This document shows, piece after piece, positions 14,892-46,600 of a stretch of 64,000 bases of DNA. The notes under the pieces were generated by a model. The model saw nothing but the letters and a program-made list of their open reading frames with translations. It ran no database searches and had not been told where the DNA came from. This stretch comes from Amphibalanus amphitrite (lineage: Eukaryota > Arthropoda > Thecostraca > Balanomorpha > Balanidae), in the NCBI RefSeq assembly GCF_019059575.1, contig NW_024882305.1:271805-335804 (forward strand), read 5' to 3'. Positions within the stretch are counted from its first letter, which is position 1, and the number at the start of each line of letters is the position of its first letter. The position numbers and the translations under genes are program-made.

Positions 14892-15885
14892 TTAACCCTA
14901 TTCCTGGCGGGCTCCGCCGGGACAAGAAACTGGCGGGGGGCCGATTCGGCCCCCCCCCCTTCAGATCTCAAAAACTACACATCGCAGCGACAAACGGTAA
15001 ACGGCATCGGATACGCACGGTCAAGATCTACAATTTTTACTAAGGTCATTTTCAGGTCAGGTCAAAGATGACGTCACAGGGGTCGAAAAAGTCAAAATGG
15101 CGGCGCTAGATATGGAGAGAGTTTTTCTCGAATAACTTTCGAATTAGTCAAGATAGGAACAAACTAAGGGCATCATCGTGATCCTCTTGTCAATCCGCAT
15201 CGAATGATATATATGTTGACCTCGAAAGGTCAAGGTCAAAGGTTGACCTCAGGTCACGTGACTTCGAGGTCATCATGTATATCATTCGATGCGTCTTGAC
15301 GAGCTGAACACAATGAGACCATCCACGCGTCTGTATCTTGTTCCTGTACGGAGTTATTGGCCAAAAACCTTTGGTGACCTTTGATGACGTCACATGACCT
15401 CACAGCTGCCCAACAGCAAAACAGACCTCAAGGTAGTGAAGGTTGATCGTATATGAAGTCATGTATGGTATATGGGGCCATTCCGACCCGTTTTAGTGGT
15501 AAAAACAGGGAGTTGATTTTCCCCCATTGACTTATAATGGGGAGGTCGCGAAACTGACCTGACCTTAGGTCACCGATATCAAAATTCCGAGATATACAAA
15601 TTGCACATACTGGTACCCTAACTAAAGCCTGAAGAGAAGAAATTGATCGGTCAAAAACTCTAGCTCTGGCGTGATTGCAAACTTTTCTGAGGTAGGGTCA
15701 CCAAACCGCCTCTGGTGACCTGACCTGAGGTCAGATCAACTCAAAATTTTCAGACATGTTGCGTAGAAGCCTTTTAGGAAAAGTCAGAAAATTTGAGCTT
15801 CCTAGCTCAACGCGTTTGGGAGAAATAACCAAAAAACCTCAGGGGGGGGGGGCTCCTGAGGCCCCCCCGCCAGGAATAGGGTTAA
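14892..15885. mobile_element. TTAA-flanked piggyBac-type MITE, 994 bp
   Basis: Both ends read TTAACCCTATTCCTGGCGGG on opposite strands, a 20-bp match that includes the TTAA at 14892-14895 and 15882-15885. G-run/C-run hairpins follow each end. There is no transposase reading frame. The middle has a palindromic core of about 96 bp (15197-15292) with CGAATGATAT arms around AGGTCA-type repeats, and TGACGTCA boxes. TTAA duplication with CCC termini points to piggyBac. Confidence 0.85.
15197..15292. repeat. Palindromic core with AGGTCA half-sites
   Basis: The arms GCATCGAATGATATATATG and CATGTATATCATTCGATGC face each other around GACCTCGAAAGGTCAAGG, GGTTGACCTCAGGTCACGTG and CGAGGTCATC. Related cores are at about 21873-22000 and 38845-38985. 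AGGTCA is the known half-site of NR1 and related nuclear receptors. Confidence 0.8.
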
Positions 15886-17103
15886 AGGAAGACTGCCACC
15901 TTCAAAAAGTTTTCTCAGATCGGCCTATGATTTATTCCCTGGACAAAACAAAACTTTAGAATTCACCTGACAAAGTATCATCACGTGAATCGCGAAAAAA
16001 ATTGTCGATTATCATACAATTATCAATCGGTTAATGTCTAACGACAATGTTTACACATCACTAGACTTCAAGGTCATAAGATTATTACATTTTATTTGAA
16101 AAAGTAGGGTATTTTATGATTTACTAATATATGATTTCATAAGAAATTGGCCATGTTTAATTTATTTTGCATTTAAGTTCGTAAAACATTTAAAAATCAT
16201 GGCTCATTTGGAATGGGTCTGGCCCATGTTAAACCCCATTTCCCACACTTTTTTGGAAAAAATGAACTTTTGAATATATAAGTTTAACTTTTATTTTGAC
16301 ACTCCAAAATTCTTCTCTGATCTCGAAACAATCAAAGTTTTGACATATATTTACCAAAAGATAAGAAAATTCATGTTTCAAAGTTATCGATAACAGTAGA
16401 GATGTCGGTTTTCTTGGACTAAAAAAATGGCATCAAACTGAACTTTGGTCTCCGATTTCTCGCAAACGGGTTCGAATTTCGGAAAACCGACTTCAGTCTG
16501 GGACATAGGTGGCTCAGCTCTAGTGAAAACCGTTTTGAGGAAAAAAGGTGGCAGTCTACCTTTAACCCTATTAGTGGCAGGCTCCTGGCTACCCATATTA
16601 GTGGCAGGGGGGCTGTTTACGACCCCCCCCCCTTGATATCTCGAGATCTAACCGGCCGATTTTCAAAATTCAAACGGCATTCGATTTGGCTCAACGAGAT
16701 CTACATTTCTAAAAAAATAAAATTAAAAAATGTCAATAGGGGGGTAGAGGGGGGTAAAAACGGGCAAATTGCAGATACATTTTAGACTGTTTATCACGGC
16801 CAGGTTTCTGAACCAATCTTAACGCAACTTTTGCCGATCGATAGAGAATGAACCAGGAATTCACATGGATCCTAAAAATATGCATTTTCAAAAATCATAG
16901 GCGGATACAGATCATTGAGATTGGGGGTACACAAAAAGTATAGTAAATAAGGTTTTTGTTGGTACTGTTTCTAAAAAGGGTGGCAATGGTCTTGTTATGT
17001 TACAATTTTCTTATGAGAGAACGACTAAAATTGTATTGGTCATGCATAGGCGGTGTCAGGGCACCTATGTTGGGAGGTAAAAAATAACCCCCCTTTTTGG
17101 ACG

Positions 17104-17840
17104 CCTGGATCCACTGGCGGATCCAGGGGGGGGGGGCCACCGGGGCCATGGCCCCCCCCCCAAAGCCTGAAAGGGGGGGCCAACATATCTTTTGGCCCCC
17201 CCCAAAACGCTTGGAGAAAAATTAATGTGAGAAGGTTGCGTAGTAGATACCTACTAGAATCAGCAGCGTGATTCAATAGCGTAGAGAAAGTCAGGGGCGC
17301 GGGAACTACTTTCAGACTGGGGGAGCACACCATAATAGAGATCAACCTAGGGTCCCCCCAAATCTAGTTTTCTCACCGGTTTTAGGCCACTTATTTTTCA
17401 TCCCTTGGCTTTTTCAACAAAAAAAGAAACAGTTGCAAAAAAGGACGGTATTCCGTTTGAAAGTTGTGGGGGCACCGCCCCCACTGGCGGATTCAAGGGG
17501 GCCACCGGGGCCATGGGCCCAAAAAGCCTGAAAGAGGGGGCCAACATATCTTTTGGCCCCCCAAAACGCTCGAAGAAAAATTAATGTGAGAAGGTTGTGT
17601 AGTAGATACTTACTAGAATCAGCAGCGTGATTCAATAGCGTAGAGAAACCCAGGGGCGCGGGAACTACTTTTAGACGGGGGGGGGGGAGGTCACACCATG
17701 ATAGAGATCAACCTAGGATCCCCCAAATATAGTTTTCTCGCCGGTTTTAGGCCACTTATTTTTCATCCCTTGGCTTTTTCAACAAAAAAAGAAAGCATTT
17801 GCAAAAAGGAGCGGTATTCTGTCTGAAAGTTGTGGGGGCA
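17104..17840. repeat. 361-bp tandem duplication inside the hAT element
   Basis: Blocks such as CCAACATATCTTTTGG, GAAAAATTAATGTGAGAAGG, CAGCAGCGTGATTCAATAGC, GGCCACTTATTTTTCATCCC occur twice, 361 bp apart, with few changes. The second copy ends at a GTTGTGGGGGCACCGCCC block that also follows the first. Confidence 0.8.
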
Positions 17841-20012
17841 CCGCCCGCACGGCCCCAGAGTTGGGGGGGGGGGGGCAAGCTGCCACCACTGCCCCCTCCC
17901 CCCGGTTCCCGCGCCTATGGAGAAACTACCGGGTTTACTAGCTTCCTTCATAAAGTGTCGTCATGTCTTATCGTCACCCGAGAAGGTCTTATTGCATAAA
18001 TATCGATTGAGCTGTCAAGTTAACAAACTTGCTGTGGCAGCCTGACCTGACATGACCCGGCAACTTTTCATTCACGGAATATGCGCAATGAATTTTTCAG
18101 GAAAACTCACTGAGTTGTTGAAAAAAAAAACTTGTTTTGTTTCGTAATTGTACAAGAAGCATATGAGGGACCTTTTTGTCCCTTCCTGCGAAACGGTAAA
18201 AGACTTATTTCGGTCACAGCTCAGGCCAATCTCTAAGGGTCAGTCGGGTCACTTATTTCTTAAAAGGGTCCTTACGGCATCCAAGGACCAATTCCGGCTT
18301 TTGAGTGCGCCACATCAGCATTTGATGCTACGACAGATGTCGAAATCTGAATATATGTTACAGGCCGTATGAAAATTCGGTCCGTTTGCAAACGGCCTGG
18401 CCCAGTCAGGCCATATGAAACTACCTGAAAACACCGGCCGTTTGCAAACTATGACCTGAAATATCAGACCGTTTGAAAACGACCTAGTTAGTTTCGGCCT
18501 AGCGAATCCAGGGGGGCCACGGGGTCATGCCCCCAAGCCTGAAAGGGGAACAACATATATTTTTTGTCCCCAAAAACACTTAAGAAAAATGAATGTGAGA
18601 AGGGCGTAGTAGGTAGAGAGAAAATACCGTATCATTAAAAATCTGTGAGCTTGATAAAAGTGTTGGTCTTGTCTTCACCCAAGAAGTTCTTATTGCACAC
18701 TTTAACGATGGATGAAAGAACCTTCATCCCCTGGTTCTCCTTCATCCATGCTTTAACTCTCGATCGACGTGTGAAGTTATCGTGTAAGGTATCATGAAGC
18801 CGATCGCGACGAAACTTTAGTACCCTCATGGTGACAAAGTCTGAAAATTTCATGACCCTGACCCAAGTGAACTTTGACTTGTGGCCTATTTCTCGAGACT
18901 GTTTGGCCATGTTGGAGGCCATGTTTGGCCGGAATAGCGATTCGGCGTATGTCGGCTCACATTATCCGCGCTTTTATAGTCTTTTCGTGGTTTAAAACGC
19001 TCAAACATGTGATATGGTGTTGCTCCCACGCATTAGGGCGGATGCCAATGTCACCTTACGGTCAAGTCAGGTCATTGACCTTTGATGACCTCGGTGCACT
19101 TTTCCGAGTTAAACATGTTTCTAGGATAGTTTCGTTTAGCTGATTTTGAATTTAGCATTTTGCAGCCATTTGAACATTTACGAAGCAGTTTTGATGCCTT
19201 CGTATCATGTTACGTAGCTGCCAGTGGTAGTGGACACCTGCTATACGGACGCCCATAAGTACTCCTACTGGTTGATCTGACCTGACCTGCCCCGACATGG
19301 TCTAAACGCATGAAGACATTATCTATGATCCAAACTAACATGAAATTTGTGATCAGCACAAAAAAACGTATTACAGCCTTACTTTAGGAGGTTATGACAG
19401 GTCCTGATTTTCCCGTCTTTTGGGTCTGTGACCTGACCTGGGCGGTGTTTCACGGCACGCTGCCAGCCGCTGCCAGCGCTGATGGCACTTTTGGTTTCAA
19501 TGGAGACATCAACAAGCCTATACCCACAACACTACCGAAGGCTGACCTTAGCTCGCGGAATGCGCTGTCAGCGGCTGTCAGCACGACCGTGAAACACCGC
19601 CCTGGAAGGTCAACCAATGACCAAGGACCTTAAAATCGGGTATCATCGGCTTCGTCTCGTCACTCACGGGCAACACGCCTGTTTTTTTTTTTCCGCGAGC
19701 TCTAGCTTAATCAGGGGCCGAACGGCAGGGGGTCCAACCGACACCTCCCAGCCCGCGACGCACCGACCCGGAGCGGGCTAATTGGTCGACAAAAGCGATT
19801 TGAAGTGTTTTCAAAGTAATATTTAGGCTCGGGTTGGGTGGGCTACCATTTCTATTTTTTTTTTTTAGTTAAAAAAAAATATCGTTTCAGGGCTGTGACG
19901 AAAAAATAAGTGGCCTAAATCCGATGAGAAAACAGGATTTGGGGGTACCCTAGGTTTGGTTACTTGCAGGAGTTGGCCCCCCCCCCAAAACGCAAGTCTG
20001 GATCCGCCAGTG
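17112..20012. mobile_element. Nested hAT-type element, 2.9 kb
   Basis: The direct repeats CCTGGATC at 17104-17111 and 20013-20020 (8 bp) flank ends CACTGGCGGATCCAG and CTGGATCCGCCAGTG, a 15-bp perfect inverted repeat. Both features are typical of hAT. The interior has a 361-bp direct duplication (for example CCTGAAAG..GGGGGCCAAC at about 17166 and 17527), a third partial copy at about 18495-18620, and long G and C runs. No intact transposase was recognised. It sits in another GGCGGATCCAGG-type repeat. Confidence 0.85.
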
Positions 20013-20350
20013 CCTGGATCCGCCTATTATAGCAAAAACGTGTCAAAAGAGGATGCACAATAACTTTGTATATGTTATCACATGATACCTTTCATTCACT
20101 GTTCGTAAAACTGGTGCAGCATCGTGATCTTCGCCCAAATGACTCGCTTCACGAATAGGACCCCCCAATTCCCAGTGCTCTGGAGCCGCCCCTGGTAAAG
20201 TTATGAACTTGAAATTTTCAGGGAATGTGCCCAATTTAGTTTAAGGAAAAGTCAGAAAATTTCAGCATCGTAGCTTCAGCGGTTTCGGAGATATTCCCGA
20301 AAAACCTGAGGGGTGGATAAAAACAACCCCCCTGCCACTAATAGGGTTAA

Positions 20351-21477
20351 TAAGGCAGCTACGGAAGCAAAAATGGTACCAAACAAAAAGTAGGTATCTA
20401 TGAGAAGATTCTAAAGCACCTAAACTTTTTGACCTCAGGTCAGTTTTCAAGGTCAGAATTCAAGGTCAAAGGCAAAAAACCCGCAATTATGTAGTGGTCT
20501 CAAAGTACGTGTTCCAGAGGACGGCATGGTGCATAAAATCGGCTAAAAGGGATGTTGAACAAAAGAAGAGAATCCGTGGATTCCGATGATGTGCATAACA
20601 TTCAAATTCAAGGTCACGATCATGCTCAAAATTGACCATAAACTTTGCACTTTTTCTTATATCTTGTATATTAAATTCCGAGATGTTTTGATATGTTTTC
20701 AAGCTTAGCGGACCCTTATTTGTGCTTTAGCTTACGATACAAGGCTGCTACAAGGTCAAAGTCACAAGAGAGTGTCCTTGCTAGAGGCTATTTCACTATT
20801 CAAGTCAGGCATGATAATTAAGACATGTTTTGCCATACTGAGGCTCTAAATGAATGCTTACAGCAAAACGGATGCCAGAGGCCCAGAATCATGATCAGCG
20901 GCTACGAAATCATCACAAATGACCTTCCATGTGTAAACAATCAACCAAATGTCATTCGAGGTCACATGAGGTCAACATAAAACTTGACCTTTTCCAAACA
21001 ATACATATGTCATTCGACGCGTCCCGACAAGACTAATACGAAGGTATCACTGCCGTAGCTCCAAGACCATTTTTGTTGAAGTTATTTGCGAATAAAGAAA
21101 CTAAAGCCCCAGCTCGGGGTCGTTGCCCTGACCTCTGACCTCAGGTCACCAAAGTTAATTAAGTATTTTTTTCTAGGTCAAATGCTACACAACCGTGCTC
21201 GTAATTTGTCTTTATCTCTAAAACTCAATTTTTGGCAGCTGGTTGAAGTTCACGTCTGTGACGCCGAAGTTTGCCGTGCAGAAGTCTAGAAAAATCGGCC
21301 CTGAGACATTATCAAGGAGGCTAGGTCCAAATTTTTTGCTTCAAAAGATGTCAAATTAATGGGGGATAAGGTACAGCAAGTTTCGTCTTTCTATCCCTAA
21401 GCGTTTGTGAGGTATCGCAAATATTCGCCAGGGGGAGGCGAAAAACGCCCCCCCCCTTCCGGGCCCGCGAGGGTTAA
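20351..21477. repeat. Sequence related to TTAA elements with orphan right end
   Basis: The stretch has many GACCTCAGGTCA-like words and ends in CGCCCCCCCCCCTTCCGGGC then GAGGGTTAA (TTAA at 21474-21477). No clear left partner was found, so it may be a truncated copy. Confidence 0.45.
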
Positions 21478-21869
21478 TGGTTAAACTCAATACGCCTATG
21501 CATGAAACCTGAAACCAAAATAATTTTGAATGACAACATCTAGGGACAAGGTGCTAATGGATTTTGCAGATCGGCGTTATCAAACAACAGTCGGGTCAGT
21601 CTCAAGCTTGCCCCCACTGGCGAAAATTCGTGGCGCCGCCACTGCCCCCCTCGCCGTTTCGCCCCTGGTGGAGCTAGCGCGTCGCGGAAAAAACGAGCGT
21701 GTGCGCCGTTACGAGACGCAGAGATTGGTACCCGATTTTAAGATCCTAGGCCAACCGGTGACCTCTGAGGTCAGGTCAAGTGCCCCAAGGTACGGTTCAG
21801 GTTTTGGTGAATAACTTCGCAAAAACGGCCGCAGAGCGCCGATTTAGGCAGCATCGTGTTCGTCTCGCT

Positions 21870-22000
21870 CAGGCGCGTCGAATGATATACTTTTTGTCCG
21901 GGTCAGGTCAACTTGGGGTGTTGACCTCAGGTCAAGGTCAGGTCAGCACCCCCAGGTCACGAAGTTGGTCGAAAGAGGTCATGTTGCATATCATTCGATT
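21870..22000. repeat. Second AGGTCA palindromic core
   Basis: CGTCGAATGATATAC at the left faces GCATATCATTCGATTCG at the right, around TCAGGTCAACTTGGGGTG, TTGACCTCAGGTCAAGGTCA and GGTCAGCACCCC. It is a diverged relative of the 15197-15292 core within the same transposon cluster. Confidence 0.7.
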
Positions 22001-22619
22001 CGGCAGGTCTTCCTGAGTCCATTGGTGGCTTTCCCGACTCGCTAGCTCAATTTGATCAAGAGTTATTGACGAAAAACTAATATGACCTTGATGACGTCAT
22101 AAATGACGTCACGCAAGGTCAACATTGCAAAAGTGACGCATCTAACCTTGCAAGGAGTGCATAAAATCACGATTCTGTGTGCTTGAGATAGTTGGAGATC
22201 GTTCCCGGCGCCAGAATAGCAGTTTTCATTTTTCCCCATTGACTTAATAAAGGTGAGGTCACGAAAATGAACTGACCTCATATGACCTTTAGGAAAAATC
22301 CGAGATATACAAGTTGTGGGACTCATAATGGATACTAGATCCTGCAAGTTTCATTTCCCTGTGACATCTCCTCTGGCAGTGAGGGCGTTGCGAAGTTGCG
22401 ACATCTGAAGACCGTGCAGGGGTTCACTTATGACGTCATAGGTCAGTGACCTGACCTAACCCAAAAATGCGGTTGGTGTCAAAAGATCCGGCTTGGATCA
22501 AAGGTCAGGTATGCCAAGTTTCAGCTCTCTATCACCAGCGTGTTCGGAGCTATCGCGAAAAAACCCTATGGGGGGGGGCGGCACCCGCCCCCCCCCCCCC
22601 TCGGCCGGCGGAGGGTTAA

Positions 22620-25274: not shown

Positions 25275-25522
25275 TCACGGATACGCACCGCCCGACACAG
25301 CTCCGCCACGGGAAGTTCGGTAATGCGGCGGCTGCTGAAGCAACACCGGAGCCGCCAGCGGCTGGAACGGCGGCGGCTGCTGCGGCAGCTGCAGCTGCTG
25401 CTGCTGCAGCTGTTGTTGCTGCAGCTGCTGCTGCTGGAGCTCCATCTGCTGTTGTAGTTTCATCTGTTGTTGCTGTTGGAGTTTCATCTGCTCCTGCTGG
25501 TGTTGCTGCTGCTGAAGTTTCA

Positions 25523-25557
<35 letters not shown>

Positions 25558-25678
25558 GGCAGGAACGGCTGCAGCCCCTCCGCTCCGGTCTGCGGCGGCG
25601 GGCTCCACTCGCCCGGGTCGGTCAGCATCTTCTGTTCCATCGCCTGCAGGCTTGGCCCGAGTTCTGCGAGCAGCCAAT
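25275..25678 (-). CDS. Receptor last coding exon, Gln-rich C-terminus
   Basis: Acceptor GTGATACAG lies just upstream in transcript direction. With the G from the previous exon the frame reads DWLLAELGPSLQAMEQKMLT, then EWSPPPQTGAEGLQPFLPQ and long Gln runs mixed with Leu, Met and Lys. It ends RTSRGGAVSGGAYP and TGA (25277-25275). The Gln tract comes from CAG repeats that are likely variable in length. LDWLL at the exon start matches the LXXLL pattern and LLAEL resembles an AF-2 core. A possible donor (CGGGCG|GTGCGT) near the end cannot be excluded. Confidence 0.85.
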
Positions 25679-28600
25679 CTGTATCACACATCGACGACCG
25701 CGGTCACGTGGGCTCCCGGCCGCCAATCAGACGACTCGACCGCGGTCGATCACGTGGGCTACGGCAAGACCAATCAGATGAGAAGACGGCTCCAGACGGC
25801 TAATCGGATGGCAGGATCGGGTCACGTGGGCGCGGACAGCCAATGAGATGGCGGGAACAAGTCACGTGGGCCTCGGATGGCAAATCAGATGGCAGGAGCA
25901 GATAACGTGAGCTCCGGATGACAAATCATACGGCAGTACCAGGTCACGTGGGCTACAGACAGCCAATCAAGTGGTAGGACCGGATCACGTGAGCTACGGA
26001 CAGCCAATCAAGTGGCGGGACCGGATCACGTGGACTCTGGACAGCCAATCAAGTGGCAGGACTGGGCCACGTGAGATACGGACGGCCAACCAGATGGCAG
26101 GAACGGGTCAAGGTGCCGTCTGGTGGCCGACAGGATTCATTTCAAATGCATCTCGATAATTGACATTGCGATTGCCCTCACTAAGTACCTTCGCACTGGT
26201 GGGGAGGGGGGGGGGGGGGCAACCAAGGAGCCGACCGCTCAGGTTTTCTGCAGTAGTGGAAAGTTCGTTTTATTCTTATTGACGTCAAGATGACGTGATT
26301 CTAACGACTAATCCCACCACTGCGAGGGTATGTTTGGGCCCTACCAAACAGTGGTTCAACATATCACACCGCATATAACGATGCGTCAGCATAGGGTCAT
26401 CCATTAGCAAATAAAAACACAGTGAACCAACATTAGACATACTGGATCGGTTAAATAGAACCAACATGCTCACAAGTCACAGCAAACATTGAAGTGGCGT
26501 GAAAAATGTTCTTTTGGTGGTGTTAACTACCGTTCAAAGGAAATGTGAGGGAAAGTGTACAGAATTATAACACACTTATGTAATGTTGTGCATCTGTGCA
26601 CATGATAGTGTATGAAATGACGGTATCTGTGTTGGATAAGGAACTTTCATTAAGTGTTAGGTGTAGTATTTGATTTCTGGTAGAGCCGTTTTTATCAATC
26701 AACATCGTGTTGTGTAAGGACGGTGTAGCATTTCACGCCACTTTTCAGGACCGGGGCGGGGAGCGTGCTTGATGCTCACCTAGGATCGCGCTGATGTCGA
26801 CATCGGGAGCCGAGCAGTTGGCCGGGTCACCGTCAGATGGCAGTCGCATGCAGTCTGTCCCGGGAGGTCCTGGTTGTCGGCCATCACCGAAAAAAGGACC
26901 GCTGTAGCCGGCAGCGCCGTACGGCTCCGAACCCCTGAGAAACGGGCAGAGATGGGCTCTGATGGAACAGGGAAGGCTGAGCGTTAGGCGGCACGGGCGG
27001 ACATCGATAGCAGCGCCTCTATCGGTCACTAGGGAAAGCTGGGCTGTAGGCGACGAAATACCGGCTGAGTTGTCACACGTTGAATAGGTTTATAGCCATC
27101 CGTCTTGTGAAAAAGTTGAACTTTTGCCTTTAATATTTCTACAGGCAATTTTAGAAGTGTCTTCACATGGCTTACAAAACCGTTTAGATTATTGTATTCA
27201 CTTCAAGCCTTCCCTATTGTTCTTGATGATGCGGGAACTATTTCTAATTAGTATTTCTAGCTTATTAAAAGAACATACTGTGCAAACGATGAAAAAAACA
27301 TAAGTGGAAGATTTTAAATGCAATTTTCTCTAACAATTAATGGTAAATTCTCTACATATCAAGGAAAAGGTGCATGCTAACTGATAATTTAAAGTTCTTG
27401 GGGCCAGTTGTTTTCTTCTTTTCTTGCGTCGCCCCAATGGCCGCGAATACACTTGTGATAACGCCTATCGGAAACACAGCGAGGCATGGAGATGGTATCG
27501 TAAGGTAGACTAGGAGAGCGGAGTTCTACGCTTACTTTTAGGAAATACAATGTACTGATACTTTCATGTTCCATCCATTGACGACTGGCGAAGTGAAAGC
27601 CAATGTCATGAGTTCGGAGTCAAACCTTCATGGTAAATGCACGCTATACTTTGGAAGCGGCAGTGACTTTTCTTATTCACGAGCCGAACTCGCTTCTACT
27701 CTCGAAATCCACGGGCCGTGTCGAGCCATACGTCTCGGTCTTTTACGTGATCGTCATTCGGGATGTTCAATTTAATGTCTGAACCCAATATATTGGTAAG
27801 GAGAAATGTGGAACGGTGCCAAAGGGACACAAGCCATGCACACAGTTCGTCTGGCGGTAAATGACCAGATCGCTAGCAAAAAGTTTTGCCGCCTTCTTGG
27901 TATTCTTTCTGGAGGCGGTTTCTGTCGCACCCATCAGCTCAAGTTCCTGTCTCAACTGCAGTTTTAGGCACTCGACGACTAGTGCCGTCAATTACGTGGC
28001 AAAGTTTTGCGAGTGCCCTCGTGTGTGCAACGGTGTGAGACTAACATCAAAACGTGAGCTGACTGAGTCGCTGGGGAGAGCGCCAACGAAAAGGTCAACG
28101 TCTTTCTCATCTATAACCATTCGTGGCCCTCAGAGGCCGGTGTCTGTCTGCCTACTTACCATTGAGGCCATTGGCTGGGAACGGATCCTGGTGAAGGACT
28201 GCCTGCCGGTGCCCCGCAGTCAAGACCCGCCGGTATCGCGCCAGGGCTGTACTGAGCGCCCGCCGGCGGAGAGTTGCGGATGCACTGAGCGCCGGCCGAG
28301 CCGCCGTACTGGCCGCCAGAGGGCTGCGAGGTACGCATGCACTGAGGGCCGGCCGCGCCGCGGTAGCCCGAGGGCGTCTGGGGACTGACTCCGCCGGTCG
28401 GGGGGCACTGCGGACTGGTCCCGATTGGGAAGACGGGCCCGGCGCCGGACGGCTGACCGTGGGCTGGCCAGGGAGGCGCCGTTCGCGGCGTACAGCCAAC
28501 GGAGGACGTGGCTGCCGGCTCCGGCAGACTAGCCCGTCTGGAACAGCGGAATCAGACGGTCAGATCTCAGAGCCCAGTCCTCCATATGCAAAAGCCCGCT

Positions 28601-31600
28601 TGAAGGCAAAACAGTAACAAGTTTGGGCCAGATTCAGCCTGACAAGTTCGGCATGCCTCACTATAAGCACAGACCTTCCATTATAAACATTTTAATGTTT
28701 GTAGGACGATGATTGCATCCAATGATCCATGGCAGTCATCCCTGACACCCTCAACCCCAACAGCAAGAGCTTAGAACCATGCCGTCGGGCAGGCATTCAC
28801 GAAACCTCCTTCGCGTCTTCCCGTTCTCTTACCTCCAGGAGCCTGGCGCCTGCCTCTGCTGTCCCTGCTGAAGCTGCTGCTGCTGATGCTGGTGGTGCCT
28901 GGGATGTAGGTGCTCCTGGCCCTTCTCGCAGAAGTCGGGCCACATGGGGTACGGGTTCAGGTCGATCTTGCTGAACTCTCCCGCTACGTTGGCCAAGTCT
29001 GAGTCGGGGAAACACACCCTGGAATAGGGCGAACGGGTTATAGGACAAGACAAAGAACCCCCGCGACTTCAGCAAAGAAAGGAACATGAAACAAGATGAA
29101 ACGCCACAAAGTGATGCAGCATGCCGACGAAGCGTTTCGCACATATGGAAGCTATTCTAAACCAAGTGAAATGGCGATTCGCAACATGGGAAGCAATATA
29201 AGGAGCAGCATGCTGAAGCACAAGGATTCAGAGTTCAGACCTAACCAAAACCAGAGGTTCTCCCTGGGGTCAAGAGCTTCCCTGAGGCCAGGAGCTGCCT
29301 CTCGTGCTAGGAACATTTCTGTCTTACGTGTTCATGTTGTGGTCCTCCACCAGCGTCCTGAGGTCCGCCAGCAGGTGGAGCATCCGCGGGTAGAGCACCC
29401 GGGTGCTCTCCTCGCCGTGGATGGAGCACATGTAACGCCGGATCAGACATGTGTAGTGATCCTGAAATCGGGACGGGAGGTCAGACGTGTGTAGTGGTCC
29501 TGAAATCGGGACGGGACGGATGCATCAGATTTGTGTAGTGGTCCTGTAATTGCAAAGGATGGATCAGACGAATGTCCTGCAAATGGGACTGATGGATCAG
29601 ATTGATGTAGTGGTCCTGGACTTTGGACGGATGGGTAAGACACGTGTTGTGGTCCAGCAAATGGGACGGATGGATTAGGCATGTGTACTGTGTAGTGGTT
29701 TTGCAATAGGGATGGATGGATCAGACATGTGTTATGGTCCTGCAAGGGACCAGACAGACGAAGACGTAGTGGCTGATGCAGTGTCGCGTCTGGGGTGGCT
29801 GTATTTCTGTATTTCTGTATTTGCGCAAATCACCAACAGGCTTGGCCCAATGACAGGTGAAGTCATATAAGTATATCACACCAAACACACTGTAAAAATA
29901 ATGATCTGTTCTAAGTACAGAAGACTATAGAAGTAAAAGTAAAAGTACCTATAGTGTAAAAAAGACTATAAAGGCAGAGTGTAAATGACTACGAAGGCAT
30001 AACAGATAAATAGTACCTACTATAGAACTACATACGATATACATAAACATTAAAACACTGTATAAGATACTGAAAGTACTGAATATCTACCTACCTAAAA
30101 ATAAAGCATTAGTGATGTATGATGTGCACAAGATAAAAAGCTTAAAACATCACAAGCTAACTTTTACACGACAGCTAACTTTTGTCCTAACATAGCGAGA
30201 AATCACTCCGATCTGCACTATGTGCATGGGTCCACCATTGCAAATTGGCTTTGCATTGACTGCTGGAGGATGCACGGTGAGCATAATGTAGTCAAACAAG
30301 GTCCATGCAAGTACGGAATGATTTAAACATATCTGAAGGTTCTGCACGAATAGGATTTGCGCTCTCTGCATGATAAGCGAAATCCTCCCAACGAATCCAA
30401 CAAATGTATGCCGATGAATGTCAAATTGATTTAGGTACTGCAGAATCCGATGACTGAATGCTAAAATCCCAGATGCTCAACATCCCTTGACAACTACATA
30501 CAATACTGTTGAATACGGCCATCATTGGATTAATCAACATCAAGATAACCGCCCGACAGTCTTGCTCCCAGACCGACCAACCAAACAAGGTCCAGAGAAA
30601 CCTGTCTCACCAATGTACTGGTGTCTGGTGACCACACCCTACCCCTTTCCCTTCTCCTCAGAGAGGACTGACTGGATGGGTCATTATTGTGAGGACCACA
30701 TGGCCCATACCCCTATACCACCGTTCGCGACCGTCTCTTTCCCCTCCTCCTGTTGGACAGACAGCCTTGTATGGTACGAATGCATAATTCACGAGTCCAT
30801 GACGCCGGTCCTGTCGCCATCGAGCTTCCTTTCTGTTTGCCCATCGCATGTGAATCGACCCGCAAAGTTCCGTAAGGCATGTACCTCAATTTCTGTCCCC
30901 AGGAGAAAAGTCCTTATCTCCCCACTAAACGAACCTGCGGCGTAGCAAGTCTTCAGGCCAGTCTTCGTACCCCCTGCCCCATCCCCTTTCTCCCCCCCCC
31001 CAGATGAAGGAACTTGCACACTCACTCAGGGTGGTCCACATTTACATGGTAAAAAATAAAGTTCGTCAGATTCATCGGGCCGGGTCGGAATTCTTGTCGA
31101 TACTATAGCACAAGATTCTGTGCAAAATTTCATTAAGATTGGATGATTTTATCCCGTCCCGCAAAACAGTCAAAGTTTCCATTATATGTACCAGCCTTCA
31201 GTATAGGGTGAATACTTGTCTTTCAACATTGCCCAGTCGCGCCAGCGGCTATCTACCAAAGAGCTTGCATGCTCAACGCACCAACCCTCTCTAGCCTTCT
31301 CAATGATAGATCTAGTCTTCCTATCAGCCACAGGCAGGAACGATAATCCACAGTTCCTGTTGCAGTTCCTGTTCTCAGTGCCAGGAGCAAGGCCCTGTAT
31401 GCCAGGAGGTGCGAATGCATTACGCTAGTTATGAATTTGCCTGCGTCTGGGATGGCCGCTGAAGCTGCAAAAGGCACACGCTCAATCACCGAAATGTGGC
31501 TTGTTTTGGCAGCCAGAAGCAAATCCTTGCTGGGTGAAACAGCCTCTTACGAAATGCATGACGCATCTTTTCACTTTTCACACCATCCGCCTTCCGGCCC

Positions 31601-34600: not shown

Positions 34601-37600
34601 CTGGGTTAACTTCGGGGGTTTCAATTACTTTTGAAGGGAAGTTGCATGCGTGCTTCTAAATTGCATCCGGGAAATATTGCATATGGCTACAATGTATGTA
34701 AGTTATGCCTACCATCTTGCCGTCAATAAAATATACCAGAGATGAGGGAAATAACTGTTTCTATGCGAGATGCAGGGAGGTATGCACCAGTATAACGCCT
34801 TTTGGGGCGACTAACGGAGCGAGCGAGAGGGTGGGCCTTCACGTGCGAAATTTAGAGGGGGTACCTCCAACTGACTTGTGCACGGCACCCTACTAACCGG
34901 TCTCTAGCGATGTGCCAAATTTGAGCACAATCGGCCCAGCCGTTCTCGAGATCTGGAAGCGGCACCCTGCACGTGCGCACGTGCAAAATGGGTCCCAACT
35001 GACTTTTGCACGGCACCCTACTAACCGGTCCCTAACCATGTGCCAAATTTGAGCGCCATCGGTCCAGCCGTTTTCGAGATCTGGAATCGACCCCTGCACG
35101 TGCGCACGTGCAGCAGCACCCCAATTCTGGCACATGGATATGCATTGCCTAGTGGGTGTCTACCTACATGCCAACTTTCAGCGCAATCGGCCAAGTAGTT
35201 ACCGAGATATTGCAACAATTACAAAAGTGACACCTCTTCGTTTTGCACGTGGCACGTGCATAAGGGGTCACCCACATGCATCGGGAATAGTCCAATACTT
35301 GGTAGAAGGAATGAAGCTACCCTACAAAAATTACCGCATGTAAATCGGTCAAGTGGTTGCTGAGATATAAGCCTCGCAAAAGCGTGACCACGGCCGGCCG
35401 GCCGGCCGGCCGGCCGGCCGGCCGCTCATACTCAGAAATTTCCGTTAATCTAAGGAAAGACTACGCTCGCTTCGCTCGCTCCGTAATCAACATCTTTTGT
35501 AGTTGCTTTTCAGTGCTAAAGCATCGATAAACAGGTCACAGAAAAACTGGTTTATAGTTGCACCAAAATAAATAAGCATTGAGGAGGGTCTTAGGGCCGC
35601 CCGGCTCGAATGCCTCTCAGTTGAGTTCAGAATGAACGTTTGAAATATATATCCACTCCAGAACCCTCGATAGATGAGCTTTTCCCGTCCATACGATATC
35701 ATCCTGTTACCCGTAGGCCGTAGGCGGCTAGAATTATGAGGTCTGGGAGATGGTGTGTCTCTCATGGAGCACTCTTTCAAAGGATAAAGGCCACGACAAC
35801 GGAACGTCTACACAATTGAACGTAAAGCTCCGATCCGTCGTGTTACGTAAGTTGGCAATAATGTCCACGTAGCCGCGTTCATGTGAATAAATCGGCTTTC
35901 ATTTAACTGGAAAAGTGACTCAGGACTCAGGTAACTCATTCATTTCCATACAAAACGCATTGAAATCTGAGAAACTCGCGGGAAAATCTGGTTATTTCGA
36001 CAGGAAAGGCAGCAAACGGAACAGCCGTAATGCTACCTCGACACTTGATTTGGTGAGAGAAAGGGTTGGGTTGAATCCAATAAAACATCAGGTTTTCGCC
36101 AATGAAAAAAACACTTCAAATGAAAATCGACGACTGCATTTATAGACTTTATGGCCAATGAATGTTTTAAACGTTTAATTTCCCTATTCCTCATTTTAAC
36201 AAGAGCCTTACTCTATTAACTGGATAAACTCCTACTGTACTCAACCTCTTCGATTAGCTCACTGGCCAGTCCAACTCGACAACTCATCAAACATCTTCAG
36301 ACCCACACTTACCTCGACGAACTGCTGGTGGTTCTTCATCAGCTTGGGCGTCATCACCGACCTCAGGTCGCTCATGCCGACCTTGGCGCCCACCGCCTGC
36401 GCGTTGAAGAGCGTGCTGTTGGCGTCGTAGACCATGGTGCCGCGCAGAATCAGCACCGCCAGCACGCCTGCCCACGGGGCACACAGGGTCAAGGTCAAGG
36501 TCAGGGCCGCGCGGCCGCCAGAGGCGGATCGAGCGCGGAAAATGGGGGAGGCGCTTGGCTGTGGAAAATGTGCTTCCTTTTAATGATCGTCTAATACTTT
36601 CTTTAAAAGCGTTATAGAATTCCCAGAGCTGCTTCAGTCTCGTTTGCATTCATCACAGCAAGTGTGCATAAATTTAAGGCAGAGTTTAGAATATTGCCCG
36701 GACGTGACCTTTTCCCCGGCATCCAACCGGAAACAGCTGGCTGCCATTTTAAAACGTTATTCTGTGCCAACGCCATTGCAATTGGATATCGAGACTGAGA
36801 GCCCCATACAAAGCAAGAGCACATTTAATTTTTGTACCGTAGGACGTTATCAGTTCTTGCGGTTTTGTTTGCAAGCAGTGACGCAGTTTACTCATCAGAA
36901 AGAGAGCCTCGTTCAGAAAGGCACAACCGACTCGTTCGCTCGACACAAGACACAAGTTTTTTTTCCGAATCCGAGAAGAGCCTCACCGTCTTCTTTGGAA
37001 CAGAGATGTATCGAGATTGCATTTGTATCGTAACCTCTTTGAGGAGTGACGCATCGTTTTCTATGAGTAACGCCTTTATCTTTTTTAGATGTAAACGTGC
37101 TGTACACTGTACAGTTTCCGGTTATATGACAAACCGTCTTTGATAGGTGCCATATCGTCTTTCAGAAGCAAATGCATGCCGGCTTTCAGGAGTAGGCGCC
37201 ATTTCCGCGGATGAGTCCCGTACTGTGAGTTCCGAAAGGTATAGCTAAACATGCGTGTCGTGCCGTCCTCTACAATTATAATCACCGTACCGTTTTTCAG
37301 CAGTATCTTTTGGTCGTTCTGCGGCAGTTGTCGGAACTGAGGCAGTGTGGCGATGAACGACACCAGCCGGGACACGGCGTTTACGAACACCCCCACAACT
37401 CTGGTGGTGGTCGGTGGCCGAGAGTCGGGTGGAGCCTCGGGGTCCAGAGGGACCGTGTTGTACCTGGGGAGAGAGAGGGGAGTGTGTGAGAGAGAGGGAG
37501 GAGAGGGGGAGAAAGAGAGAGAGAGAGAGAAAAAAGAAAAAGAAAGAAAGAAAGGAGATGGAGAGAGTTGATAGAGAGAGAAAAATAATGGGGAGAGGGG

Positions 37601-40600
37601 TAGGAAGGGAGGGAGGCGGAAAGAGGAATTGAAAATAAAGGAAGAGTGAGAGAGGAGAGTGAAGGAGAAGAGAGATGGAGATGATAGAGATCAGAGTGAA
37701 ATCCTTATTCCGGGTCAATGGGAATGTGGCGTAGTACCATACCTTCTTGGCAACCGGGAAGGGCAGGACGTACACAACTATGATGCAATACTGAGGGGGC
37801 TGATTCGAGCTATGCTGCGGAGCTGTGGTCTATCCCTGTGGTGTGAGTGATGCTAGGTTATGCGGATATGATACAATATGGCGAGGGGGAAAGTTCCATC
37901 GGGACGGCAGCTTTGCAAAACGCATTGAGGGAGTTGAAAGGTCAAACGAACTAGTGAATCCTTTGGAAATAAGCCAGCAAATTACACAAGCTGAAGGAAG
38001 CTATACCCGCGGGACGGGAATGAGGATGACCAAAATTATGTCATCTATGTAAGTAGCGCAGTAGCAGCATGGGCTCTTGGACTGAAATTGCATCACTACC
38101 AATGGAGGCCCTAGCTGCGGTTGAATGGCTGTGACGATGCTACAGTGAGATCCAATACGCTGCGCAGTGCAGACTCAGCATCCGATTGTACCGGTCAGCG
38201 CTGACGGAAACGGCTCAGCACTGACAATGGAACTCTATTGATACATGCCATCTCGGCACGTTTACTGCCGGTTCAGGAACGGTACAGACAAGACAATAGA
38301 TACAGAGGTGGACCCCGTCGACTGTCGAGAAACAGGTTTAAATGGCAAACGTCCCCTCTATAATAGGGGAGAGTGGGGTAATTTGGCCGCTTTTTTTTAG
38401 AAAACGATGTAACTAAAAATCGACAACACATTTCTGCATTTTCTCAACGCTGACAGGTGTGGCATACATTTTACTTCCTTGGACAGTAAACTTGAAATGA
38501 TTGAGTAACTACTTATATTAAAATTGTGGCGTATTACAAAGGTCTGCAAAGCGGCCAAATTGCCCCACTAGCAGGGTTATTTGGCCGGGGGTGTGGGGCA
38601 ATTTGGCCGGTGTTAGTTTGAGGCCATGATTTTTGTTATAGGCGGGTCAGCTTCACATTCAGCAATGACGCGTGTCCTACGACGCATTTGAAGAATTTTG
38701 GAGGTTGACTCAGCCGTCACAGGGGTCGAAAATAGTCAAAATAGCGGCTCTAGATGCGATGACAGTTTTTTTACGAATAACTTTTGAAGTAATCAAGTTA
38801 GGTCAAAACTAAAAACACCATCGTAATTCTCTCGTCATTCCGCATCGAAACATGTATGTGTTGACCTCGAGAGGTCAAGGTCAAGGTCAAGGTCAAGGTT
38901 GGCTTCAGGTCACGTTACCTCAGGTCGCTTGACCTCAAGGTTACGTGAGTTCAAGGTCATCATGTATATCATTCGATGCGCCTTGACGAGCTGAACACAA
39001 TGAGACCATTTGCGCGGCTGTATCTTTTTTATGTAAGTATTTATTAGCAAAAATGCGTTAGGTAACCTTTGATGACGTCACATGCCCTTACAGCTGTCCA
39101 ATAGGAAATATGGCATCAAGGTAGTCAAAGTTGGTCATGAATTATGTCCTTTATGATATAATTGACCATGACAACTCGGCCGTCCCAGCATAGTGACTCT
39201 GAGCGCACCGGCCAAGTTGCCCCGCTAGTCCCGGCCAAATAAACCCACATTGCCATTCTGAAAATTTTTGTCTATAAAGTCGTCATGGCTGTACAGAACT
39301 AGATGAAATTGCTCGTGGAACCACTGAGCACCCTCAAAAATGGCGCTATAATATTTTAATTCGTTTACAGCCCAAATACTACATGTTATACAAATTTTAA
39401 ACAGAAGTAAAAGTTACCATTTTCTAACGTAATTCACCTTTTATTAATTTTGAATAAAACTAAGAGGGGGAAAGCTTTGACATTTGTTCTCCAGTTAGTT
39501 CTGCCGATGACAAATGAATAAAGACTAAAGCTATTTCATTCACTTTTATCAGCTTTCGTACAGGTGGGGGCGGCCAATTAACACCACCGGCCAAATTACC
39601 CCACTCTCCCCTACGCCCATGCATCTGCAGCACACCTGTTATGACGGATAAAAAATCGGTGTTGAATATGTCAATTTGACCTACACCATTCTTATTTCTA
39701 TCAGTACCTATGTGGTCAATAAAACATCACAATCCATCGAGACATGTAGCGATGGATAGCCATACGTTTTGAAAAAGATGGCAGATGGCACTGCTCGAAA
39801 GTTGATTAATTACAATAATTCACCGGCCGCGCGGGGGACTGCAGTCTGCAGACAATCCCCCAGTCTGTCTTATGGGAAGGTCCTGATAAGGCGTATCGGC
39901 ACCGGCCATGCGGCTAGCGCCATTGTCTCAGGGCTCAGCCAGTGATGAAGCTTGGTGCCACGCCTTGGCAAGGAAACCCATGGGAGGGCCTTTCGGGGGC
40001 TTATCCCCGAGGGGCTGGGACTTTTGATGATCCTGTTATTGTCGATGGTTAAGCGCATTGCGCACCTCAGGGGTCTTTTTTATAATCAGGCTCTTAAAAT
40101 TCAAAACTTCCATATGGAAGTAAAAAGGTAACACGCGAAGGATTGCCAAGGGCATAAAGTATTTCCATTCATCTTTTTGAGAAAAGATGAAATATTGGAT
40201 GTCTTATTTTTATTTCTAACTGGAGTTAACAAAAGCATTGCAGCTTACCAGCCACCCAGCATAGATTGAACTTCCATTTTGTCCGGACTCCACACTCCCC
40301 CTCCCCAGAAGTCGGGATTAAATTCTGAAGATGATCCGTAGTCCGCAAATATCACCAATCAGCAAGTCTGGCAGATAAACCGATCCTAACCAACCCGACT
40401 CCTCCTTTTCAGGAAGGGGAGACAGTGCTTCCTCTATATGCTACCCCATGTGATATCGAATTCAAGTCAGTTCCCTGTAGCTACCATGCGCCAGTCAATT
40501 TAACTTCGAGAAATGAGTTCAGTTAACTCCACGAAAATGCATGAAGCGTTTGAGCAGTTCTCAAAGTTTGTTCGTTACTTAAGCGATTAATGCCGTTTGC

Positions 40601-43600: not shown

Positions 43601-46600
43601 GATGTAACACAGTGGTATTATGCAATAAAATAAACTGGGAAGCATTACGTTTTGCATACTTTTGTGGCAAGTCACGCAAGGGAGGCAAATGGGGGCACAG
43701 TGTCAGATGCGTACTACTTTGATCTTCAACGACATAGAAACATGTCGCTTTGATCCTTATCATATAGAAACAAAATTAATGTGTCGTTTAATACAGGTTT
43801 GACATGCATAATCATGGAATCGCTTTTGTCCGTTCCTTCAAATTGCTGTTCTACATCTAACTAATTGGCTGTCACATAATTGGCTGTGTCACCGTTTTGT
43901 GCATTTACTGTATTGTGTTTTGTATTTTGAGAACACATATTACTGATCTTCAGGACTTAAAAATAATGGAAAGTAAAACTTTATTTTCATAAGAAACCGC
44001 TTAACTAGAAGATACATTGATTGCACCCTCTTAGCCCTGACTAGGATGGGAACCAAGAAAGGGGGCATTGACCGCGGTTCCAGTTTGGTCATGGACCTTC
44101 ATTATTTGTATGTCACTCATATAATGTTTACAAAGTCCTTGGAACTTAACTTACTGTCATTTGACTCCTCACAAAACTGTCGGCTAATTTATTGAGCATT
44201 GCAATCAAGCATTGATTAACGAACTATAGGCATGCAAGTGGGTAAGCAGCCATTGATAGTGATAGAGCGTTCAAAGTTCAAAGTTGCTGAACGAAGGTCG
44301 TTCAGCGTCAACTCTATGCTTATTTGTCATCCAATCATCTCTTAGCTTCAGCTCAACACGGTTTTAGGCCACGACACTCAACAGAAACTGCATTGCTCAG
44401 CGTATCCGACCATATTTTATCTGCGACAGACAGAGGTGATCTTACTCTACTCTGTCTGATAGATTTAAGTAAATGTTTTGACGTTATCGACCATTCCAAA
44501 CTATTGACCAAACTAGAGCAGCATGGAGTTGACGCTGAATGGTTCCGCTCTTACCTATCAAACCACACACAGAGTGTTTCCATCACTGACCCTGTTTCTG
44601 GTCGAAGGTGCCTCTCGCGGCCGCTGCGAAACAGTGTGGGGGTGTACCAGGGGTCTGCCCTCGGGCCATTGTTGTACACAGTGTTCGCCAATGACCTGAG
44701 CCTCTGCGCGCCTGATGCCCATGTCGTCCAATACGCCGATGACACGCAAGTGCTTGTGTCCGGCGGTAAGGATGACATTGCGGCTCTGGTAGGGCGCATG
44801 GAGAGCTCCCTCACGTCTTTGGACGTGTGGTTCAGGGCTAATGCCCTGAAGGTGAATGCCTCGAAAACCCAACTAATGGTATTTGGCAGCGGGCCGAACC
44901 TCCGCAGTGTCCCCACGATCGAGGTGCGTTTCCGTGGCGAGACTCTACGCCCGGAACGGAGTGTTAGAAACCTCGGCGTGATATTCGACCCTACTCTGTC
45001 ATGGGACGAACACGTGGCACATGTCGTGTGTAAGTGCTTCGGAATGTTGATTGCCCTCAGCCATATCCGGCATTACCTCCCTCAGAGGGTGATACCAACA
45101 GTTGTGCACGGTCTAGTACTTTCTCACCTTAGGTACTGTATAACTGTGTTCGGTAATTGTACTGGCAAAAATCATAGGCAACTCCAAAAGATTATTCACT
45201 TTTGCGCGAGAGTGGTTGCTGGGAGACGCAAATTTGACCATATTTCGGATATTTTGAAAGGTCCTGACTGGTTTACATCTACACAGCTGTCGGATTACCA
45301 CACACTTTCTCTAGTCCACCGAACACTCCGGTGGGGAGAACCGGCTCCACTTGCCTCACTTTTTATCAAAAGCTCGAATTTACGTATACGACAAACGCGA
45401 CAGGACAACAGTTTTTACCTACCTCGCATCCGATCGGAGGCAGGTAGACGCCAGTTTGCGTACCGGGCACCGCAGCTTTACAACGGTTTGCCGGTGGAGC
45501 TAACTGCCCTCAAGCATGATGCCTTCAAAAAGAACTTGCGTCTTTACCTCAAGAGAGAGTACGAGTAGGTGCTGTTCCGGTATAGTTACCTATCGTCTGT
45601 GAGGCTTATTTACCGCTTGTGAAACTTGTAACTTGCGCTGTGATGTTTCTCTTTTTCTTTTATTATGCGTTTTATGTGTGTATGTGAATGCATGTACCTT
45701 TTTACCCACTTTTACTACTGTTCAGCGATTGTGACACTGGACTGAGAATAGCCACGGCTCCTGTGGATGGTCCAAAGACGTTCAATAAATAAATAAATAA
45801 ATAAGAGCACTTTCGTTATTAACTACCCCGGCTCACGATCGCTTCCCAAAAGATCAGTCAAAGCTTAAAGCTCGAACAATAACTCATTGGAAACCTAACC
45901 ATTGTGCCATTATTTTCAACCATGATTAAAACGACAACAAACCACGATACCACATGGAGGCCCTGGGCCATCATCTCCTTCAAAACCGAGAGTTGCCATC
46001 CACACCGCGAGTCATTTCACCCCAGCCAATCATTATAACTCATAGAGGACACAGCCATCGCCATAGAAATAAAGACGCCATCGCTGTCACCGTTGGAACC
46101 GCACTGTAGGTACTTACGAGGCGTAGAACTTCTGAATGAGTTGGTCGATCTCCCGTTTGTCCTGCTCCGACAACTGCGACGCGGCGGCGGCGGCAGCGGC
46201 GGCGGCAGCGGCGGCAGATGCGGAGGACGCTGAGGTGGCAGTGGCGGCAGGAGCCTCCTGGGGAGGGGAGGCACACGTCGCCGCCAGCGGTGCCGGACGA
46301 CAGTTGCGACCCCCTCCGTCCTCCTCTTCGTTTAGTCTCTGCCGTTTCCGCTCTTTCCGGATCTGAGGAAGGCGGGGGTGTTACTCAGGGTTCATGAAAA
46401 ATTGTGTGGTAAGTGTAAAACGATATGAAGTGCTGGAATACCAAGTTGGTCAGAGATAGGACGTGATAGGTGTCTAAGACTTAACCCGGCGGCCGCTGGG
46501 CCTCCGCGCCACCCGCCGGCCGCTGGGGGGGGGGGGGCATATAGTTGCCCCCCTTTACTTCTGCGACGATATCGTCGCAACGCGAAGAGATAGAGAAGCG

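Follow-up and report, generated by a model that had tools for sequence, protein, structure and literature searches.

Minisatellites in which each unit carries a transcription factor site are already known, and several human systems can be compared with the array that we describe here from a predicted nuclear receptor gene of Amphibalanus amphitrite. Nearest in place and motif is VNTR2-1st in intron 2 of human TERT, which is also intronic, has a unit of 42 bp compared with 41 bp in our array and contains CACGTG in many of its repeats, but belongs to another gene, and the accessible text of that report mentions neither a CCAAT partner nor a fixed spacing (PMC2915984). Nearest in logic is the TSER of human TYMS, which likewise consists of tandem units with an E-box for USF1 and in which the site is lost from some units by a single-base change, as it is from the sixth unit of our array; however, the TSER unit has 28 bp and lies upstream of the gene, the E-box is CACTTG, the repeats are few, and a CCAAT module is not mentioned in the accessible part of the paper (PMC7712088). 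Nearest in period and CCAAT content is the U3 region of human LTR12/ERV-9 with its 5-17 repeats of about 41 nt, which contain CCAAT (NF-Y) next to sites for other factors and for which enhancer or promoter action has been reported (PMC11853044). These repeats differ in that they are located within a retroviral LTR and that the partners named in the available text are GATA-2 and MZF1 instead of an E-box factor (PMC11853044). Our array likewise has CCAAT in repeats of about 41 nt, but a retroviral LTR was not found around it, and for this reason we do not classify it as a member of LTR12. Finally, the human sites of USF1/2 (MITF) together with NF-Y have the same order and orientation, the E-box preceding CCAAT on the strand of the latter, but are described as pairs, a group of which lies in HERV repeats, whereas here the putative sites form a tandem array (PMC7046753, PMC7793273). 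An array with a full E-box/CCAAT module of fixed spacing in every unit was not met in a narrow literature search that covered few subscription journals.

The window, i.e. the whole stretch of DNA analysed, comprises 64,000 nucleotides of contig NW_024882305.1 (positions 271,805 to 335,804 of the forward strand), and all coordinates below are counted from its first letter. Unit alignment, which was anchored on the E-box and is free of gaps except for one base between 25820 and 26105, resolves a minisatellite of ten head-to-tail units, U1 to U10, at 25702-26105 of the plus strand, with a unit of 41 bp, the unit consensus GGTCACGTGGGCTACGGACGGCCAATCAGATGGCAGGACCG and unit lengths of 33-46 bp at the low-coordinate end. 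The units start at 25702, 25748, 25787, 25820, 25860, 25901, 25942, 25983, 26024, and 26065, respectively. TRF reports period 41, score 157 and 7.7 copies, and with tandem units in the range of about 10-100 bp the array is a minisatellite. An earlier sequence-only reading had placed it at 25674..26115 with a period close to 41 bp. The array is indeed present there, but its proper span is about 25702-26105, and the exact 41-bp period is found only from 25863 onward, as the E-boxes up to that point are 46, 72, and 40 bp apart, the second distance spanning U3, whose E-box went by deletion. The four helical turns ascribed to the period are nearly right, 41 bp corresponding to 3.90 turns at 10.5 bp per turn. 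All eight perfect CACGTG boxes of that reading were located (25705, 25751, 25823, 25863, 25945, 25986, 26027, and 26068), and where it had counted at least six CCAAT boxes there are seven between 25674 and 26049, six of them inside units and in register. The out-of-register copy at 25674-25678 belongs to the first bases of the predicted last exon and has its next E-box 31 bp away instead of 23, and because of this distance and location it is not counted as a unit. With this box, the flanking piece U00 and the partial U11 left aside, CACGTG is intact in eight of ten units, CCAAT in six of ten, and both in six of ten.

Composite modules of CACGTG and CCAAT are found in U1 (25705..25727), U2 (25751..25774), U4 (25823..25844), U7 (25945..25967), U8 (25986..26008), and U9 (26027..26049), with gaps of 12, 13, 11, 12, 12, and 12 bp, respectively, the E-box being 5' of CCAAT on the same (plus) strand in all six. 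U5 (25863..25885) and U10 (26068..26090) kept CACGTG, with CCAAT changed to CAAAT and CCAAC, respectively; in U6 (25904..25926) the E-box reads AACGTG and the second box CAAAT, and U3 (25787..25819) has a CTAAT in addition to its deleted E-box. Pairwise identity between units is 63-88% (nine units, U3 excluded) and highest among U7-U9, so that the array looks like the product of several rounds of duplication. The boxes are thus copies of one unit and not eight independent events, and this plain origin by minisatellite duplication had not been weighed in the sequence-only reading. A profile made of the ten units and two flanking pieces recovers all ten units from the window and, at E <0.1, no further match in it except 25656-25691, which is itself a member of the profile.

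The start-to-start distance between E-box and CCAAT is 17-19 bp in nine of nine readable units (degenerate boxes included, U3 excluded), just as had been claimed, and the distance from the E-box centre to the middle A of CCAAT is 17.5 bp in seven of the nine measurable units. In human ENCODE data, CCAAT is mostly found 17 or 18 bp downstream of the E-box in 2748 regions co-bound by NF-YB and USF1 (PMC7046753), and in another ENCODE analysis the E-box of USF1/2 and MITF lies 10-12 bp 5' of CCAAT, whereas the distance of MYC to CCAAT is not fixed (PMC7793273). Since a gap of 12 bp is equal to 17.5 bp from centre to middle A, we take the two published figures to describe one arrangement. With a gap of 11 or 12 bp, five of the six intact modules fall into the published range of 10-12 bp, U2 with 13 bp being the exception. 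As far as order, strand and spacing can be read from the letters, the array is equal to the reported human USF-NF-Y arrangement, and it is in this strict sense that the earlier idea of a platform for bHLH factors and NF-Y may be upheld. The flanks fit in a similar manner: RRCCAATSR is the flank pattern of NF-Y, and it is matched by five of the six intact CCAAT boxes (U1 fails). A T preceding the E-box suits USF/MITF/TFE better than MYC, and T is the base before the E-box in eight of nine units. Moreover, CACGTG N9-15 CCAAT occurs seven times in the window compared with 0.25 expected, and six of the seven are within the array; the seventh, at 35105, has a gap of 9 bp. Neither ERSE nor E-box pairs with a 5-bp gap were seen in the array by eye.

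The gene model places the array in a minus-strand nuclear receptor gene, more precisely in its predicted last intron (25679..26779, 1101 nt, phase 1; donor CTAG/GTGAGC, acceptor GATACAG/AT), between the predicted penultimate coding exon (26780..26934) and the predicted last coding exon (25275..25678), which is open to its stop and encodes a polyQ tail. The joined exons keep an open frame and read DVDISAIL-DWLLAELG, followed by the polyQ tail and the stop; since donor and acceptor are both in phase 1 and the joined frame is open, the array can be assigned to the last intron, directly against the 3' splice site. An alternative in-frame acceptor would let the exon begin at 25663. The assignment to a nuclear receptor comes from a Pfam match to Hormone_recep, the ligand-binding domain, at 37088-37690 (E 1.6e-4, 21.6 bits, under the cut-off of 23.5 bits) and from four joined translated pieces, for which vitamin D receptor chains are at the top of the best 60 of 189 PDB matches with E <=0.01 (E 6e-9). 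The remaining receptor pieces submitted to Pfam gave no nuclear-receptor match, and the DNA-binding domain was not found in the examined pieces. The intronic location is therefore supported by the sequence-based gene model, in agreement with the sequence-only reading. For CpG, the window has an observed/expected ratio of 0.90, which suggests an invertebrate-like genome with little CpG loss.

The reading that we tentatively prefer, at somewhat less than even probability and with a neutral origin almost its equal, is that of an amplified composite site for a USF-type factor and NF-Y, which would act as a homotypic enhancer within the intron. A founding 41-bp unit would have contained one USF/MITF-type bHLH-zip site together with an NF-Y site, the E-box 5' and CCAAT on the same strand after a gap of 12 bp, and duplication would then have led to ten units, in six of which both boxes persist and in two more the E-box alone. 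NF-Y may open the chromatin and USF-type dimers may bind alongside at the preferred spacing, so that the strength of the enhancer would be set by the number of intact modules. The putative target is the receptor gene itself or a transcript with a nearby start. Since the spacing matches and a T precedes the E-box, we infer a cluster of the USF-type/NF-Y kind. The array, the geometry of its modules, the low variability of the E-box and, by way of the gene model, the position in the last intron are what the sequence shows, and binding, enhancer activity and target are proposed on this basis.

How far chance could account for the modules has to be asked for a single unit: as the units descend from one founding unit, the number of boxes is no test of chance. 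In random 41-mers of equal composition both motifs occur, in any arrangement, with a probability of 0.0004, an E-box followed by CCAAT after 10-12 bp with 4e-5, and the same with NF-Y flanks with 4e-6, values that are only suggestive for the array since a genome holds very many arrays and many noticeable motif pairs. The boxes had also been described as better conserved than the rest of each unit, which holds for the E-box and is a trend for CCAAT. Among the ten units the mean pairwise difference is 0.070 in the E-box, 0.142 in CCAAT and 0.344 in the linkers. No other of the 41 6-mer registers varies as little as the E-box, for which column permutation gives p=0.0046 if it is named beforehand and p=0.0015 when U3, which lost it, is excluded, whereas CCAAT by itself ranks sixth of 41 and is not significant (p=0.068); both boxes jointly give p=0.00045 (ten units). 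Fitch parsimony requires one change in the six E-box columns, three in the five CCAAT columns and 47 in the 30 linker columns (nine units, U3 excluded). Neutral simulations on the unit tree, with differing degrees of rate variation, reached the observed E-box value in 0.5-3.5% of cases and kept at least six modules intact in 0.35-1.0%. Furthermore, among 1271 masks of six columns, a gap and five columns, the mask E-box+12+CCAAT ranks fifth, and the four others that score as high or higher consist of the same pair of blocks, either a few columns out of register or with their order exchanged.

The main rival, which we consider about as probable and also short of an even chance, is a neutral intronic minisatellite, whose founder contained CACGTG and CCAAT by chance or as an old regulatory scrap that was spread by unequal exchange, the low variability of the boxes being a chance cluster of invariant columns. 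Minisatellites are common here, as TRF lists 50 rows in the window, including a second array at 29440-29687. The margin of the E-box, which the box-versus-linker comparison proposed in the sequence-only reading did bring out, is gone if any 6-mer may be picked afterwards: P is then 0.13 for the ten units and 0.25 for the seven regular ones, 0.06 for nine units picked for having the E-box position, and 0.13-0.49 in neutral simulation. In windows of 5, 6, 7, and 8 bp our array reaches P values of 0.09, 0.13, 0.14, and 0.30, respectively, and the control array at 29443 with its seven copies 0.67, 0.32, 0.11, and 0.13, so that the control is less clustered at 5-6 bp but equally or more so at 7-8 bp; a second control at 33659 (three copies) gave P 0.33-0.75. 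Because the control at 29443 is comparable at 7-8 bp, clustering of columns alone does not distinguish the E-box array, and conservation as a proof of selection is weakened by the post-hoc and control tests. Decay of the units to 63-88% identity, the box losses in U3, U5, U6, and U10, the loss of CCAAT from four of ten units and the descent of all boxes from one ancestor unit are in line with neutrality as well. VNTR2-1 of TERT reportedly has enhancer activity according to a later paper. In 2010 it was called not known in the accessible text whether the CACGTG minisatellite in TERT intron 2 influences expression (PMC2915984), which leaves room for a neutral array of this kind. Against neutrality stand the order, strand and spacing, which fit a known two-factor arrangement at about 4e-5 per random unit, the overlap of the two motifs with the two blocks that vary least within the unit, and the lower clustering of the control 29443 at window 6 (P 0.32 compared with 0.13). 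It is the fit of the conserved blocks to the known motif pair that does most of the work. Overall, the earlier interpretation is partly supported: the feature is real, regular and ordinary in kind, with an unusually exact fit to a known two-factor arrangement, and a function is plausible. The enhancer, internal promoter, antisense transcript or E-box decoy named in the sequence-only reading are candidate roles.

Tandem repeats of factor sites make regulation adjustable through copy number, and a spacing kept in such a distant animal would mean that the human USF-NF-Y arrangement is old. Since units without CCAAT (U5, U10) or without both boxes (U3, U6) occur naturally and the spacing within modules is nearly fixed, the array is a ready-made series for comparing the contributions of E-box, CCAAT and spacing. 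A bolder version, which we regard as improbable, is that a copy-number-tunable array drives a short transcript for the polyQ tail and that selection keeps the 12-bp spacing as in human cells; if true, the arrangement would be ancient across animals and replicated within one locus.

It is improbable that the array is an internal or bidirectional promoter, from which a minus-strand mRNA for the tail only (starting at ATG 25691 or at the exonic 25640) or a plus-strand antisense RNA would arise. The array edge is just 23 bp from the predicted last exon, and an in-frame ATG (25689..25691, minus strand) lies between array and acceptor, directly upstream of this exon; this ATG and those at 25640 and 25628 share the frame of the polyQ tail, which is closed by a stop five codons upstream of 25691. 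However, a TATA or other core elements were not recognised by eye, the context of ATG 25691 appears poor by eye, and a single in-frame ATG near an exon is often expected by chance.

Less probable still is an element at the RNA level for splicing or 3'-end formation, with the array steering whether the transcript is polyadenylated within the intron or spliced to the last exon with its polyQ tail. Such a role may be imagined since the array occupies the expected site of branch point and pyrimidine tract and is preceded, as read on the coding strand, by an AATAAA (26269..26274, minus strand) within the last intron. At the acceptor (25679/25678) the pyrimidine tract is weak, with pyrimidines making up about half of it as judged by eye, and read-through of the donor adds only GEHQARSPPRS before a stop, so that with the intronic AATAAA the receptor could conceivably exist in a form that lacks the polyQ tail. 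But AATAAA is common (75 matches in the window, both strands), the block with the lowest variability is a palindromic motif of DNA rather than a splicing signal, and the array folds no better than shuffled sequence (z -0.12 for the minus and -1.05 for the plus strand), by which RNA structure was rejected for both strands. Neither Rfam at gathering scores gave a match in the whole window nor ARAGORN a tRNA.

A protein-coding repeat was rejected as 41 is not divisible by 3, and the plus-strand frame of 351 aa that extends into the array represents the polyQ exon read in reverse, stops at 25846 and has no Pfam family at E <=0.1. An origin from a mobile element found no support within the window: between 20000 and 40000 no direct repeats of at least 24 nt flank the array as an LTR pair would, except for CAG-rich predicted coding sequence (60% identity), a second copy of the 41-bp unit was not found in the window, and matches of the intron elsewhere in it are short (14-22 nt).

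The surroundings contain further motifs and repeats. A CRE pair, TGACGTCA at 26280 and TGACGTGA at 26291 (26280-26298), with starts 11 bp apart, is located 175 bp off the array; since TGACGTCA is enriched in the window (13 compared with 0.82 expected), the pair is not taken as support. The second minisatellite has a unit of about 39 bp, with 6.4 copies at 29440-29687 according to TRF and seven copies at 29440-29756 according to a repeat search, and it is the array used above as the control for conservation of columns. A sequence of about 119 bp is present twice in tandem at 34867-35112; the copies agree to 89-91%, lie at a distance of 128 bp and both contain, near their ends, GCACGTGCGCACGTGC with two E-boxes separated by 2 bp. 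Another E-box pair, the third, has a separation of 1 bp and is found at 35246-35258. Plus-strand pieces at 1842-5844, three of which gave no Pfam match at E 0.01, presumably resemble ZNF207/BUGZ, and at 44291-45565 an open plus-strand frame with an RVT_1 reverse transcriptase (E 3e-26) lies opposite the receptor gene. Of the nuclear receptor half site AGGTCA, the window contains 119 copies compared with 31 expected, concentrated at 15043-22507 and 38862-38959; part of this excess is due to a dispersed repeat, as 15072-15472 resembles 38715-39160 with 75%, and at 38872-38899 AGGTCA is repeated 4.7 times head to tail.
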